A program made the position numbers and the translations under genes. Positions 55,794-60,224 of a stretch of 64,000 bases of DNA are shown here, piece after piece. Source of the stretch: Amygdalobacter nucleatus (GTDB lineage Bacteria > Bacillota > Clostridia > Saccharofermentanales > Fastidiosipilaceae); contig NZ_JARFNM010000001.1 of assembly GCF_029167365.1 (NCBI RefSeq), positions 1,108,001 to 1,172,000 on the forward strand, written 5' to 3'. Within the stretch, counting starts at the first letter, position 1, and each line of letters begins with the position of its first letter. The notes under the pieces were generated by a model. It searched no databases. It was not told where the DNA came from and saw only the letters and a list, made by a program, of their open reading frames with translations.

Positions 55794-55805
55794 CCCTAAA
55801 AATAA

Positions 55806-55896
55806 CGGAGAGCAGGGGATTCGAACCCCCGTTACGCTATTGTACACGTAAACACGATTTCCAATCGTGCGCCTTCGACCGCTCGGCCAACTCTCC
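55806..55896 (-). tRNA. tRNA-Ser (GGA)
   Basis: Class II tRNA with a long variable arm (91 nt), anticodon GGA in stem CACGA/TCGTG, acceptor GGAGAGT, discriminator G as required for serine. CCA not encoded. Confidence 0.95.
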
Positions 55897-55927
55897 ACGC
55901 AACCACAATAAATTAGCATAGCACAGC

Positions 55928-55958
55928 AAAAAAAGCAAGCGCACCCAGAAGGTGCGCT
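55928..55958 (-). terminator. Intrinsic terminator of the 86-residue gene
   Basis: AGCGCACC / GGTGCGCT stem, 5-nt loop, followed on minus by TGCTTTTTTT. Confidence 0.85.
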
Positions 55959-55972
55959 CACTATTTCACTAT

Positions 55973-56233
55973 TTACTTAGTTTGAAAATTATCCTCGCCA
56001 AACAAATTCAAGCGGAACAAGTATGACTCATCATCAACGTTATCGCAGACAATCTTAGCTTCTGCTAATTTGCCGCCTTCAATCAAGCGGACCAAACCGA
56101 TCATCTGGCTTAATTTGCTCTTCAAATTAAACTTATCGCCTTCATCATTAATCAAATAAACATTACCCTTGCAATTGTCCAATGCTTGCATGAACTTCTG
56201 CACATCGATGTCATTCATCAAAAATTCTCTCAT
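55973..56233 (-). CDS. Small conserved-looking protein of unknown function
   Basis: 86 residues, no signal or membrane segment. The pattern NCKGNVYLINDEGDKFNLKSKLSQ then GLVRLIEGG resembles small clostridial proteins of unknown role (sometimes annotated by accident as poly(A) polymerase). Followed by its own terminator; no informative partner nearby. Confidence 0.7.
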   Translation of the reverse strand: MREFLMNDIDVQKFMQALDNCKGNVYLINDEGDKFNLKSKLSQMIGLVRLIEGGKLAEAKIVCDNVDDESYLFRLNLFGEDNFQTK

Positions 56234-56682: not shown

Positions 56683-58287
56683 CTATATTCTCTCAGCTTG
56701 TTGTTTAATTTCATTAACAAAATCTAATCCACGTTCTGTAAAGTCTTTGTATGTATTATAACTAGCTGCTGCTGGCGAAAGCAAAATGCCTCTATCTGCT
56801 TCTGTAATTTCATAGGCTAATTTAACTGCTGCATGCATGTTCTCAACTTTAATAGCTTTCGTCTTTGCCCCTAGATTTTGCAGGCAATCAACAATCTTCC
56901 AGCCTGTATCTTTCAAAGCGATTACATTAACTTTTTTATCTTTTAGGAAGTCAATTAAGCTAGAATAATCTAAGCCTCGATCTAAGCCCCCTAAAATGAT
57001 TGTTTGGCAATTTGGCAAAGCCTGCAATGCTTTTATCGCAGCCAAAGGAATTGTGCTAATTGAATCGTTGTACACTTGATGGGTTCTATAAGTACCTACA
57101 TATTGTAAGCGATGCTCTAAGCCTATAAAATTCTTTAGGCATTGATTAATTCCTGCCACTTTTGTTTGGCTAAATTTAGCCCAAAGCTTTTTGAGCAAGC
57201 TTGTATTCAAGCTTGAATTGTTCGTCCGTTCATAATCGATACAGCTATGAGCAAAGGTAGCTATAACAGCCAAAATGCTATCAAGTTGTATATGCACAAC
57301 CTCTAATTGCTTAGAAAAAGCTAACTTTAACTTCTCTGTCTTTGCGTTTGCTTGGTCTAATTGACCTAACAGTGTAAGTTCTTTATTAGTAAGATCATAG
57401 TAAAAGGCAAAGGCTGTAGCTGGTACTTTCATATCTTCATATAATTTTTGCAAATTTTGAAGATCAGTTAAATTACGGCATAAGAAAAATACACGTTGCT
57501 CTTTCTTAAGCTCAGCTAAAGCCAACTCTAGCAATATCGGCTCATAAGCTGGCAAAACCACAATCTGTCCTGGCTTAGCAAATTTGAGCAAGTTTAATTT
57601 TGCTTGGTAATATTCAGCCAAGCTATGGTAATGATCCAAATGTTCAGGATAAAAGTTCGTCAAAAGTGCAACTGAACTTGCATGGCAGGTAAATTCGAGT
57701 TGATGACAAGATAGTTCCAAGGCAGCTACTTTAGACTCTAAGCTAAAAATCTGTTCAAAGGCCGCGATGCCGATATTGCCTAGGAGCACTGAATCAAAGC
57801 CTGTAATTGCTAACAACTCTTTGATTAAAGTTGTCGTAGTTGATTTGCCTTTAGTTCCACTTACAGTCACTGTCTGCTCGCCATAAAGTTGCAAGAATAA
57901 GTCAACTTGGCAGCTTATTTCTGTTTTAGGGGCAGCTTTTAAGCTTGCTAATTCACGTGTATGTTCTGGCGCAGGCAAATATTCTAAACCCTTAAACGAA
58001 ATACCAGGGCTCTTCAAAACCAAATCAAATTGTGCCATAGACTTTAAGTAGTCAGGACCACTAAAATCTTGCACACTTAAATTATAAGTTTGATTAGCTT
58101 TTAAAACGCAATTACGACACACTTCAACATTTTGATCTGCCACACCTAAGCTGTCTACGCCTAAAGCTGCATAATTTTCCAAAATAAACTTTAAGCTAGC
58201 TTTTCCCTCACGGCCCAAGCCCAAAACTAACACTTTTTTACCAGAAAAACGTGTCTTTAGTTTGCTTAAAACTTCTTCCTTGTTCAT
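56683..58287 (-). CDS. murD2: UDP-MurNAc-L-Ala ligase, MurD2-like (probably adds L-Glu)
   Basis: Mur ligase with ATP-binding GTKGKSTTTTLI (near residue 150) and central-domain motifs. In canonical MurD the C-terminal D-Glu-binding motif reads NDSKATN; here it is NDSISTIP (about residues 407-414), the form I associate with MurD2, which adds L-glutamate. The ATG at 58287 has GGGGGA upstream and starts 1 bp after the stop of the MurL-like gene, so coupling is near certain. If canonical instead, it would add D-Glu directly. Confidence 0.82.
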   Translation of the reverse strand: MNKEEVLSKLKTRFSGKKVLVLGLGREGKASLKFILENYAALGVDSLGVADQNVEVCRNCVLKANQTYNLSVQDFSGPDYLKSMAQFDLVLKSPGISFKGLEYLPAPEHTRELASLKAAPKTEISCQVDLFLQLYGEQTVTVSGTKGKSTTTTLIKELLAITGFDSVLLGNIGIAAFEQIFSLESKVAALELSCHQLEFTCHASSVALLTNFYPEHLDHYHSLAEYYQAKLNLLKFAKPGQIVVLPAYEPILLELALAELKKEQRVFFLCRNLTDLQNLQKLYEDMKVPATAFAFYYDLTNKELTLLGQLDQANAKTEKLKLAFSKQLEVVHIQLDSILAVIATFAHSCIDYERTNNSSLNTSLLKKLWAKFSQTKVAGINQCLKNFIGLEHRLQYVGTYRTHQVYNDSISTIPLAAIKALQALPNCQTIILGGLDRGLDYSSLIDFLKDKKVNVIALKDTGWKIVDCLQNLGAKTKAIKVENMHAAVKLAYEITEADRGILLSPAAASYNTYKDFTERGLDFVNEIKQQAERI

Positions 58288-58288
58288 A

Positions 58289-59908
58289 TTAGTCCCCCAT
58301 AATTTCAGCATAATTTGTCTGTAAAATTTGCTTAAACTCAGCTGGAATCAACTTCGCTTCCTGCCACTCTAATGGATCTTCTCCAAGATAAATGTAAGAA
58401 CCTGCTTGATATTTAATAAATGGACAACGTCCTTGCATAACCCAGTTCTTTGCCTCTTTGAGCAAGCAATCTTCCTCTGCTTTAGCTTGATTTAATAAAA
58501 TTGCCATAACATAGCTAACTTCATTCACCGTGCCTACGCATTCAAACGGCTTGACCTCAGTTACACCTAATAAGCCAGCCAAATCTGGAAGCAATGCTTT
58601 ATTTTTGAGCAGATTTGCATTAAATATCGCTTCTAAGCGCTCTTTAGTTATATAAGGGCTTAAAATCAAATACACAAACAAGCATTTTGCACACTCTCCA
58701 CACCACATATTCTCTCCCTGCCTAGAACCTAAATTGCAGGAACGGAAAAATGTGTAATAAGCTGGAAACTTAGCAAATATTCTTGCAATAGCTAATTCAT
58801 TGAAGACTCTTAAAAAGCTAAAATAATACGCACAATTGCCAAGATAAGTCTGGGCATAAGTTTGGAAACTAGCTTCAAATTGACTTGTCTTAGAATACTG
58901 ATGATTAATCTCGCTACCCTTGACTGTTGCGGCATTGCTTGATGCTTCATTGGACAGGGCTATATAAGGTATATCAGTTAAATACGCAACTAAATAGCTA
59001 TAAAAAGCAACTATGCCTGAAAATGGTGTATGCCCATTCAAAAAGCCTAATTTGTTCAAGTCAACTATTCTTCTATCCAAATTACGCTTAATAAAGAAGC
59101 AATCGGCTTTTTTAACATCGGCCAATTTCAGTGAATCTAAGCAAGCTTGACTTGGATTAATCGCAAAGCCATAACGCTTGTATGGGGCTTTTCTTAAAAG
59201 CTCTAAGCTGACAACTGAGTCTTTGCCACCGCCAACTGGAATTAAAACAGCTTGTTGCTCTTTCCTAGACTCTATCGGCAAAATACTTGCCTTAGATAAG
59301 CTATCTACAATCTGCCAGCTAACATCAATTTTTTCCTTAAAACTAGTTTTGGCCATGAGCTCATTCAAAGCTTGTACAGTTTCACCTGTAAAACTGGAGA
59401 TTGTTGCAGTTAGCTTATTTTCTTTTCCTAAAAAAGTCAAAAGTTCAGCCTTGTGACAATTTATTTGGTTACGATATAGCATTTCACCTAAGCCGTTATA
59501 AAACCAATCTAGCCATACAGCCTTTGCTTCTGCCTTTAAGCTAGTAATGTCCATTTTGTAGTATTTTGGGCAAAAGCATTTCCAATAAGACAAGCTCTCC
59601 ATACAGCCTATTTGAAATAATAATGCTTCTAATTTCTGCCTATCAGCTAGTTTGTCTCTAAGTGCCTTAGATGCAGGTAAACGCAAGCTAAAAGATGGTG
59701 CAAATTTAAATAAAGGCGCTATCTCAAAATCATAAACTACCTTTAGTTCAATTTCTGTCTCTAGCTCTTCCACCTTATAAGCAAAACGAGCATAACGAAA
59801 GATAAGTCCAGATTCTCTAAAAGCACTAAATTTAGCTTGAGCTGAACTTGCTAAAATGGCATCTAAATTAAAAGTTCTTAACTCAGCTTGTTCACTTGGC
59901 ATTGTCAT
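58289..59908 (-). CDS. murL: MurL-like UDP-MurNAc-L-Ala-L-Glu epimerase
   Basis: 539 residues with an N-terminal family-specific domain and a PP-loop ATPase motif PVGGGKDS at residues 224-231, followed by a CGECAKC cysteine cluster near 405 and conserved SNEASSNAA / SQFEASF segments. MurL (known from Xanthomonas) uses ATP, releasing AMP and pyrophosphate, to epimerise the terminal L-Glu of UDP-MurNAc-L-Ala-L-Glu; a PP-loop fits that chemistry. Its head-to-tail coupling with a MurD2-like ligase supports the assignment. Could otherwise be an unrelated PP-loop protein. Confidence 0.75.
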   Translation of the reverse strand: MTMPSEQAELRTFNLDAILASSAQAKFSAFRESGLIFRYARFAYKVEELETEIELKVVYDFEIAPLFKFAPSFSLRLPASKALRDKLADRQKLEALLFQIGCMESLSYWKCFCPKYYKMDITSLKAEAKAVWLDWFYNGLGEMLYRNQINCHKAELLTFLGKENKLTATISSFTGETVQALNELMAKTSFKEKIDVSWQIVDSLSKASILPIESRKEQQAVLIPVGGGKDSVVSLELLRKAPYKRYGFAINPSQACLDSLKLADVKKADCFFIKRNLDRRIVDLNKLGFLNGHTPFSGIVAFYSYLVAYLTDIPYIALSNEASSNAATVKGSEINHQYSKTSQFEASFQTYAQTYLGNCAYYFSFLRVFNELAIARIFAKFPAYYTFFRSCNLGSRQGENMWCGECAKCLFVYLILSPYITKERLEAIFNANLLKNKALLPDLAGLLGVTEVKPFECVGTVNEVSYVMAILLNQAKAEEDCLLKEAKNWVMQGRCPFIKYQAGSYIYLGEDPLEWQEAKLIPAEFKQILQTNYAEIMGD

Positions 59909-60015
59909 GACGTTTATCCTTTGTAATTCATTAAGTTATCATTATAGAATAAATCTAATATTGGTTAAAGTTCCCACTCAGCCATAGAAATTGCTCTTTG
60001 TATTAAATTTAGGGT

Positions 60016-60046: not shown

Positions 60047-60048
60047 AA

Positions 60049-60130
60049 TGGGGAAGGACGGATTCGAACCATCGAAGTCGTAGACAACAGATTTACAGTC
60101 TGCCCCCTTTGGCCACTCGGGAACTTCCCC
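60049..60130 (-). tRNA. tRNA-Tyr (GTA)
   Basis: Acceptor GGGGAAG / CTTCCCC, long variable arm (82 nt total), anticodon GTA, discriminator A. CCA not encoded. Confidence 0.95.
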
Positions 60131-60150
60131 ACATATATAATTGTCTTGAA

Positions 60151-60224
60151 TGGGCCCTCAGGGACTCGAACCCAGGACCGACCGGTTATGAGCCGGCTGC
60201 TCTAACCGACTGAGCTAAAGGCCC
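60151..60224 (-). tRNA. tRNA-Ile2 (CAT, lysidine-modified)
   Basis: Acceptor GGGCCTT with one G-U pair, anticodon loop CTCATAA, discriminator A. The body (TTTAGCTCAG, CTCATAA) matches tRNA-Ile2 of Gram-positives and E. coli, where C34 is changed to lysidine by TilS to read AUA. A second elongator Met is the alternative. Confidence 0.8.

Follow-up and report, generated by a model that had tools for sequence, protein, structure and literature searches.

The 64,000-nucleotide stretch of Amygdalobacter nucleatus DNA analysed here (the window; G+C content 39%) carries two adjoining minus-strand genes, murL and murD2, which very probably form a working MurD2-MurL module that supplies D-glutamate (D-Glu) to peptidoglycan without free D-Glu. 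In the proposed route, MurD2 would attach L-Glu first and inversion to D-Glu would follow afterwards; MurL is predicted to adenylate the alpha-carboxylate of the terminal L-Glu, with ATP split to AMP, and this adenylation would acidify the alpha-proton of the same residue. Both enzyme activities are predicted from homology, and the adenylate mechanism is carried over by analogy from the Xanthomonas enzyme, for which it has been published as a hypothesis. The presence of both genes, their coupling, the specificity residues of the ligase, the absence of other D-Glu genes and the mutual exclusion of MurL and MurI across genomes were observed directly.

The MurL-like open reading frame (ORF) encodes 539 amino acids (58289-59908, minus strand; NF041275 match) and is followed by a MurD-like ORF listed with 542 amino acids (56683-58311, minus strand; TIGR01087 match). 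At the coupling junction (58285-58298, minus strand), which can be read directly, a Shine-Dalgarno-like GGGGGA stands in front of TAATATG, so that the TAA of murL (58291-58289) and an ATG at 58287 are separated by one base. Because of this arrangement, 58287 is the probable start of MurD, whose translation is then coupled to that of MurL, and the functional protein is probably the 534-amino-acid frame at 56683-58287 (minus strand), starting one base past murL. The preliminary description of this DNA had proposed that a MurL-like PP-loop protein is coupled to a Mur ligase, and this is borne out by the coordinates, the shared strand, the junction and both family matches, whose scores lie far beyond chance.

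The putative MurL matches NF041275 (MurL_Xanthomonadales equivalog) with 232.7 bits (E 5.9e-69), below the curated cut-off of 700 bits, and five tested relatives gave 228-252 bits; its identity to murL of Xanthomonas sacchari is 31-33%. Judged by these scores, the protein is a homologue outside the curated Xanthomonadales subfamily. Its PP-loop, GGGKDS, is invariant in 32 of 32 aligned MurLs, and NGHxP, SNExS, NHQxSK and SCN...WCxxCxKC are likewise invariant in these 32 rows, which include X. sacchari. MurL is described in reviews as having no known conserved domains. An AlphaFold model built from 31 rows (predicted local distance difference test (pLDDT) 87.9; predicted template modelling score 0.87) was aligned by VIA-align first to QatC (Z 17.4, 318 residues, 3.7 Å) and then to QueC (Z 13.0), and this predicted fold places MurL in a superfamily of QueC/QatC-like PP-loop proteins. 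Foldseek returned no match for the model at E <= 0.001, and a sequence search of the PDB with MurL gave short PP-loop matches only, the longest of 38 residues. PP-loop enzymes of the QueC/QatC kind split ATP to AMP. Such a fold would agree with the ATP-to-AMP stoichiometry reported for MurL and with the adenylation of the alpha-carboxylate proposed for it (PMC8788868). The alignment to QatC, which belongs to the anti-phage system qatABCD, takes in part of the N-terminal half, and by this model the two proteins may descend from a common multi-domain ancestor. In the MurL tree the window protein forms a long branch outside any starred set, so this tree supports no inference on gene transfer.

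The window MurD scores 259.8 bits (E 5.2e-77) against TIGR01087, for which the cut-off is 211.95. Over the whole genome this model matches six places, and the only one above the cut-off is the window MurD; the other five are MurC, MurE (two places), MurF and MurT. According to the published work on Xanthomonas oryzae, Glu197 and Arg358 of MurD2 (Asp182 and Lys348 of Escherichia coli MurD, in a numbering that leaves out the initiator Met) set the use of L-Glu, and the E197D/R358K double change turns the enzyme to D-Glu (PMC8788868). Both MurD2 residues are found in the window protein, which has Glu at Asp182 and Arg at Lys348, together with Ile at Lys319. The same Glu/Arg pair is present in X. 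sacchari MurD2 and in all 12 other MurL-linked MurDs of the order, and Asn/Lys occupies these positions in 12 of 12 sampled MurI-linked MurDs of the order. Among 71 named MurL-linked MurDs, taken from the best 80 of at least 580 MurL loci, position 182 is Glu in 59 and Asp in 12, and position 348 is Arg in 70, with one gap. In the MurD tree, MurI-linked and MurL-linked proteins lie on opposite sides (support 100, starred, for the MurI-linked set and 92 for the MurL side). The preliminary description had relied on NDSISTIP standing in place of NDSKATN; the motif is real and resembles NDSISTTP of X. sacchari MurD2, but its diagnostic value did not hold, since Ile replaces the NDSKATN lysine in 11 of 12 MurI-linked MurDs of the order as well. 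Loss of this lysine was therefore dropped as a marker of L-Glu use, and the determinants are the changes of Asp182 to Glu and Lys348 to Arg.

The source genome (1.61 Mb in three contigs, 95.5% complete) contains no murI, the best score against TIGR00067 being 24.8 bits against a cut-off of 146.65. No aminotransferase of class IV (PF01063) was matched in it, by a search whose control was positive in 13 of 14 genomes. DapF (PF01678) was matched neither here nor in the order's 13 genomes with MurL, and a role of DapF as the Glu racemase of this organism was thus ruled out. The D-amino-acid aminotransferase model TIGR01121 was above its cut-off in none of 118 genomes of the order, a result that says little about the relatives because only 1 of 14 controls was positive. 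The Asp/Glu racemase family PF01177 has a single match in the genome (G000:C1:396931-397524), which scores 157 bits for the cysteate racemase CuyB (cut-off 190) and 145.9 bits for TIGR00035 (cut-off 93.1), and by these scores it is a racemase of the aspartate/cysteate type. Its gene (L001:1444-2184) lies directly downstream of an asparagine-synthetase-like gene and has a recombinase-like gene on its other side, both neighbours being named by eye. The genes murC, murE, murF/mraY and murT/gatD are present elsewhere in the genome, and MurT/GatD presupposes D-Glu in lipid II. The MurE of this genome is divergent (L004:910-2658; G000:C1 near 89.5 kb), with 234 bits against the TIGR01085 cut-off of 257.3, so that it does not tell which residue stands third in the stem peptide. 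With a single MurD above the cut-off and no MurI, PF01063 or DapF, the murL-murD2 pair is the sole visible D-Glu route in the genome. A genome check for murI and a second murD had been suggested earlier, and since neither was found, no conventional pair is seen to serve the cell; together with the Glu/Arg residues, this supports the proposal that L-Glu would be added and then epimerised, bypassing both MurI and a D-Glu-specific MurD.

MurL was found in 13 of the 118 sampled genomes of the order, the same 13 being recovered with a single protein and with a 10-row profile as query, and MurI was above its cut-off in 89; the two never occur together. For independent genomes the chance of this would be 1e-9, but independence does not hold here. 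In the family to which the window belongs, 11 of 12 sampled genomes carry MurL. The twelfth (G034, 84% complete) lacks not only MurL but also any MurD above the cut-off, so that an assembly gap likely explains the missing MurL. Beyond the order, a named genome collection holds at least 580 MurL loci, of which the best 80 come from Lachnospiraceae, Oscillospiraceae, Erysipelotrichales, other Bacillota and Bacteroidales. MurI was above its cut-off in none of 50 named MurL genomes of Bacillota and Bacteroidota (completeness not given), and weak racemase-like matches were seen in six of them. In the same best 80 loci, MurD is adjacent to MurL in 67 (including L129, counted as adjacent despite about 1 kb between the frames), fused to it in four and absent in nine. 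The loci without MurD in the fetched stretch (L107, L111, L113, L117, L119, L125, L134, L153 and L162) are from Bacteroidota, and their genomes also lack MurI above the cut-off. Two reviews name only Proteobacteria and actinobacteria as well-matched MurL carriers, one of them adding orthologues of low similarity in cyanobacteria, a fungus and an amoeba. On the present sequence matches, the MurL route is widespread, reaching beyond the few genera to which reviews confine it, and its occurrence in a low-GC Gram-positive, which had been considered notable, is not exceptional. In the open-licence literature, no report was found of MurL in Bacillota or Bacteroidota, of a MurL-MurD fusion or of a route combining MurD with a PGA_cap protein.

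Within the order, six of the 13 genomes with MurL (G004, G015, G022, G026, G030 and G041) encode MurL and MurD in a single frame of 1019-1070 codons, and fusions were also found in Bacteroidales (L098, L110 and L131); a further fusion locus, L106, is probably from the same genome as G022. The joining of MurL and MurD in one frame is strong evidence for one shared pathway. As to whether fusion arose more than once, the tree needs six changes, at least three of which are forced by starred branches, but shuffled labels do as well.

Several observations weigh against a working MurD2-MurL module. The bit score of the window MurL is one third of the cut-off of the only MurL model, and its identity to the Xanthomonas protein is low, at the 31-33% given above. 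The 12 named MurL-linked MurDs with Asp at 182 lack the expected Glu, and the D-Glu-using MurD of Streptococcus mutans also has Arg at 348 (PMC8788868). The window MurD has Ala and Tyr at the positions of E. coli Ala414 and Leu416, where X. oryzae MurD2 has Pro433 and Phe435; changes of these two residues in X. oryzae left stereospecificity unaltered (PMC8788868), and Pro/Phe was not counted as defining MurD2. The statistics of MurL/MurI exclusion ignore kinship among the genomes. Furthermore, an aspartate-family racemase is present in a genome whose assembly is 95.5% complete. This racemase is the basis of a conventional explanation, in which it would supply free D-Glu in the manner of RacD, MurD would use D-Glu and MurL would do another job. 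The gene exists and exceeds the TIGR00035 cut-off, and Vibrio racD has been treated as a source of D-Glu beside murI (PMC12502697). However, the protein is far closer to CuyB than to MurI (157 against 24.8 bits), TIGR00067 matches nothing at E <= 0.001 in the 12 further MurL genomes of the order, which puts the racemase outside the module, and the window MurD has Glu/Arg and not the Asn/Lys of MurI-linked MurDs; we consider this explanation very unlikely.

More unlikely still is a reading of the MurL-like protein as a paralogue that acts on a different substrate, carrying out a QueC/QatC-like modification and merely adjoining murD. The missed curated cut-off and the nearest folds, QatC and QueC, would fit such a paralogue, as would MurL-like genes without a nearby MurD, on a Pseudonocardia plasmid and in nine of the best 80 loci; against it stand the strict exclusion of MurL and MurI, the single-frame fusion with MurD in two phyla and the residues shared with the annotated Xanthomonas MurL, and the nine MurD-less loci themselves sit in genomes without MurI above the cut-off. 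Finally, the organism might scavenge D-Glu from other bacteria or make it by DapF as in Chlamydia. Its genome is small and DapF is able to racemise Glu (PMC5885031), but DapF is absent here and from each of the 13 MurL genomes sampled in the order, and scavenging would leave the retention of MurL and its fusion to MurD unexplained, which makes this the least credible of the alternatives, with hardly any probability.

Searches with peptide patterns of the window MurL gave no match in viral contigs and four plasmid records with MurL-like genes. The one on Pseudonocardia alni plasmid pPaSha1 (L042, 3797-5197) is annotated as hypothetical, has no MurD neighbour within the 9-kb stretch and possibly serves another function; similar genes are carried by two other Pseudonocardia plasmids.

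Neither MurI above the cut-off nor MurL is present in 16 of the order's 118 sampled genomes. The first three examined carry a frame of 791-800 codons in which a MurD with NDSISTIP or DDSISTIP is joined to a further domain (L171:8502-10898 in G057, L172:5112-7484 in G106 and L173:7679-10078 in G086), and this further domain was PGA_cap by Pfam in the two tested. A PGA_cap domain search over the 118 genomes gave 11 matches with E < 1e-140, the next being 2.4e-26, and these 11 genomes are exactly 11 of the 16. In all 11, the MurD bears a motif of the NDSISTIP type and is joined to, or neighbours, a protein of PGA_cap/MslH fold (L174-L184), the PGA_cap domain being fused behind MurD in nine and encoded by the next gene in two (G051 and G117). 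Of the remaining five, G003 is 96% complete and the other four 73-86%; the MurD of G003 groups with MurI-linked MurDs, so a missed MurI is likely there. The PGA_cap-linked MurDs nest within the MurL-linked clade (support 100, starred, for a 14-row set and 98, starred, for a 22-row set), and a tree separating the two kinds was rejected by the approximately unbiased test (p 0.0015), the group having been chosen with a first tree already in view. In their nearest relatives (L112, L121, L122 and L104 among them), MurL adjoins the same kind of MurD. This PGA_cap protein was found in none of the best 80 of the MurL loci. Given this nesting and these relatives, the unrelated PGA_cap protein seems to have taken over the position of MurL in the locus. 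A profile search over 391 genomes of the class, a sample and no census, detected PGA_cap at E <= 1e-40 in two more (G211 and G397), neither beside MurD, and the MurD-linked protein looks confined to its family.

The PGA_cap protein is likely to be an epimerase like MslH, as far as models and alignments can tell. Its sole NCBIfam match is MslH (NF038314), with 53.2 bits (E 1.5e-14) and 48.2 bits for a second protein, both short of the cut-off of 700, so that the likeness proposed is one of working and not of family membership. A sequence search of the PDB at E <= 0.001 finds only three relatives, all from the MslH entries 8gq9, 8gqb and 8ith. A model from eight rows (pLDDT 85.9) matches MslH with Z 31.5 over 288 residues at 2.9 Å, the next fold reaching 15.8, and Foldseek gives MslH at 1.7e-17 against 7.8e-9 for the next. 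MslH is a lasso-peptide epimerase acting on a C-terminal Trp, in which two His/Asp dyads beside Ca(II) invert the C-terminal residue (PMC10406935). Seven of its eight named positions (dyads His88/Asp91 and His295/Asp11; ligands Glu44, Asn87, His259 and His261) are kept in all eight aligned PGA_cap rows, His261 being Gly and Asp11 being placed by position, and generic PGA_cap proteins share most of them, which makes these positions permissive and of no diagnostic value. The C-terminal L-Glu on UDP-MurNAc-L-Ala would be a fitting substrate for such an enzyme. It is thus rather probable, going by these models, that one family of the order has a third, previously unreported route to peptidoglycan D-Glu, in which a MurD2-type ligase works with a PGA_cap (CapA/MslH-fold) protein replacing MurL. 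Against this route, much of the motif set is shared by generic PGA_cap proteins, nine of the 11 genomes (all but G090 and G117) have DapF, which might racemise Glu, weak Asp/Glu-racemase-like matches occur in seven of the 11, and the three counted PGA_cap-linked MurDs have Asp and not Glu at 182, as do 12 MurL-linked ones.

Around the window pair, the murL-murD2 unit is flanked by genes for tRNA-Ser (55805-55897), tRNA-Tyr (60048-60131) and tRNA-Met (60151-60224), all on the same minus strand. An ORF of 86 amino acids (55973-56233) lies between murD2 and a terminator-like hairpin (55934-55962, minus strand), which precedes tRNA-Ser and is possibly the transcript end, such sites being found four times against 3.9 expected. 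A promoter-like TTAACC-16-TATAAT upstream of murL (59941-59968, minus strand) is weak, with 14 sites in the scanned stretch against 13.3 expected by chance.

The supply of D-Glu is an antibiotic target that is usually equated with MurI. Should MurL stand in for MurI in much of the Bacillota and Bacteroidota of the gut, drugs against MurI would leave these bacteria untouched, inhibitors of MurD2 or MurL would hit many commensals and not just a few pathogens, and the stereochemistry would be wrong in those annotations and metabolic models that name the gene as a D-Glu ligase. With the natural MurL-MurD fusions, structure and mechanism could be studied on one tractable enzyme that performs both steps. 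The PGA_cap exceptions allow a direct test of the idea that MurL can give way to an unrelated fold in a pathway that is essential; in such a role, some members of a large family known chiefly for 'capsule synthesis' would gain a function.

The closest known system is MurD2-MurL of X. oryzae (XOO_1320/XOO_1319), and such pairs have also been confirmed in vitro for Micromonospora and Salinispora (PMC8788868). The window shares with X. oryzae the coupled pair, the Glu/Arg residues, NDSIST-P and GGGKDS, as well as the absence of both MurI and D-amino-acid aminotransferase, and its gene order, murL then murD2, is that of X. sacchari. Unlike the Xanthomonas system, it belongs to a low-GC host of the Bacillota type, its proteins are only 31-33% identical to those of X. 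sacchari and have a longer N-terminal region and insertions, Ala/Tyr replaces Pro433/Phe435, and relatives of the organism fuse both enzymes. MurL resembles QueC and QatC in fold, PP-loop and the C-terminal cysteine cluster SCN...WCxxCxKC, which we take to be similar to the zinc site of QueC; it would differ from them in its substrate, the carboxylate of a glycopeptide, and in that the reaction ends in epimerisation. The PGA_cap protein, in turn, shares with MslH the calcineurin-like fold, both dyads, most metal ligands and the expected action on a C-terminal residue, but is only 21% identical to it, has Gly for the ligand His261, is fused to or beside MurD and scores 53 against 700 bits. The window pair belongs to a known kind, in a lineage and breadth absent from the literature found, and the MurL-MurD fusions and, above all, the MurD-PGA_cap proteins go further than the systems described so far.

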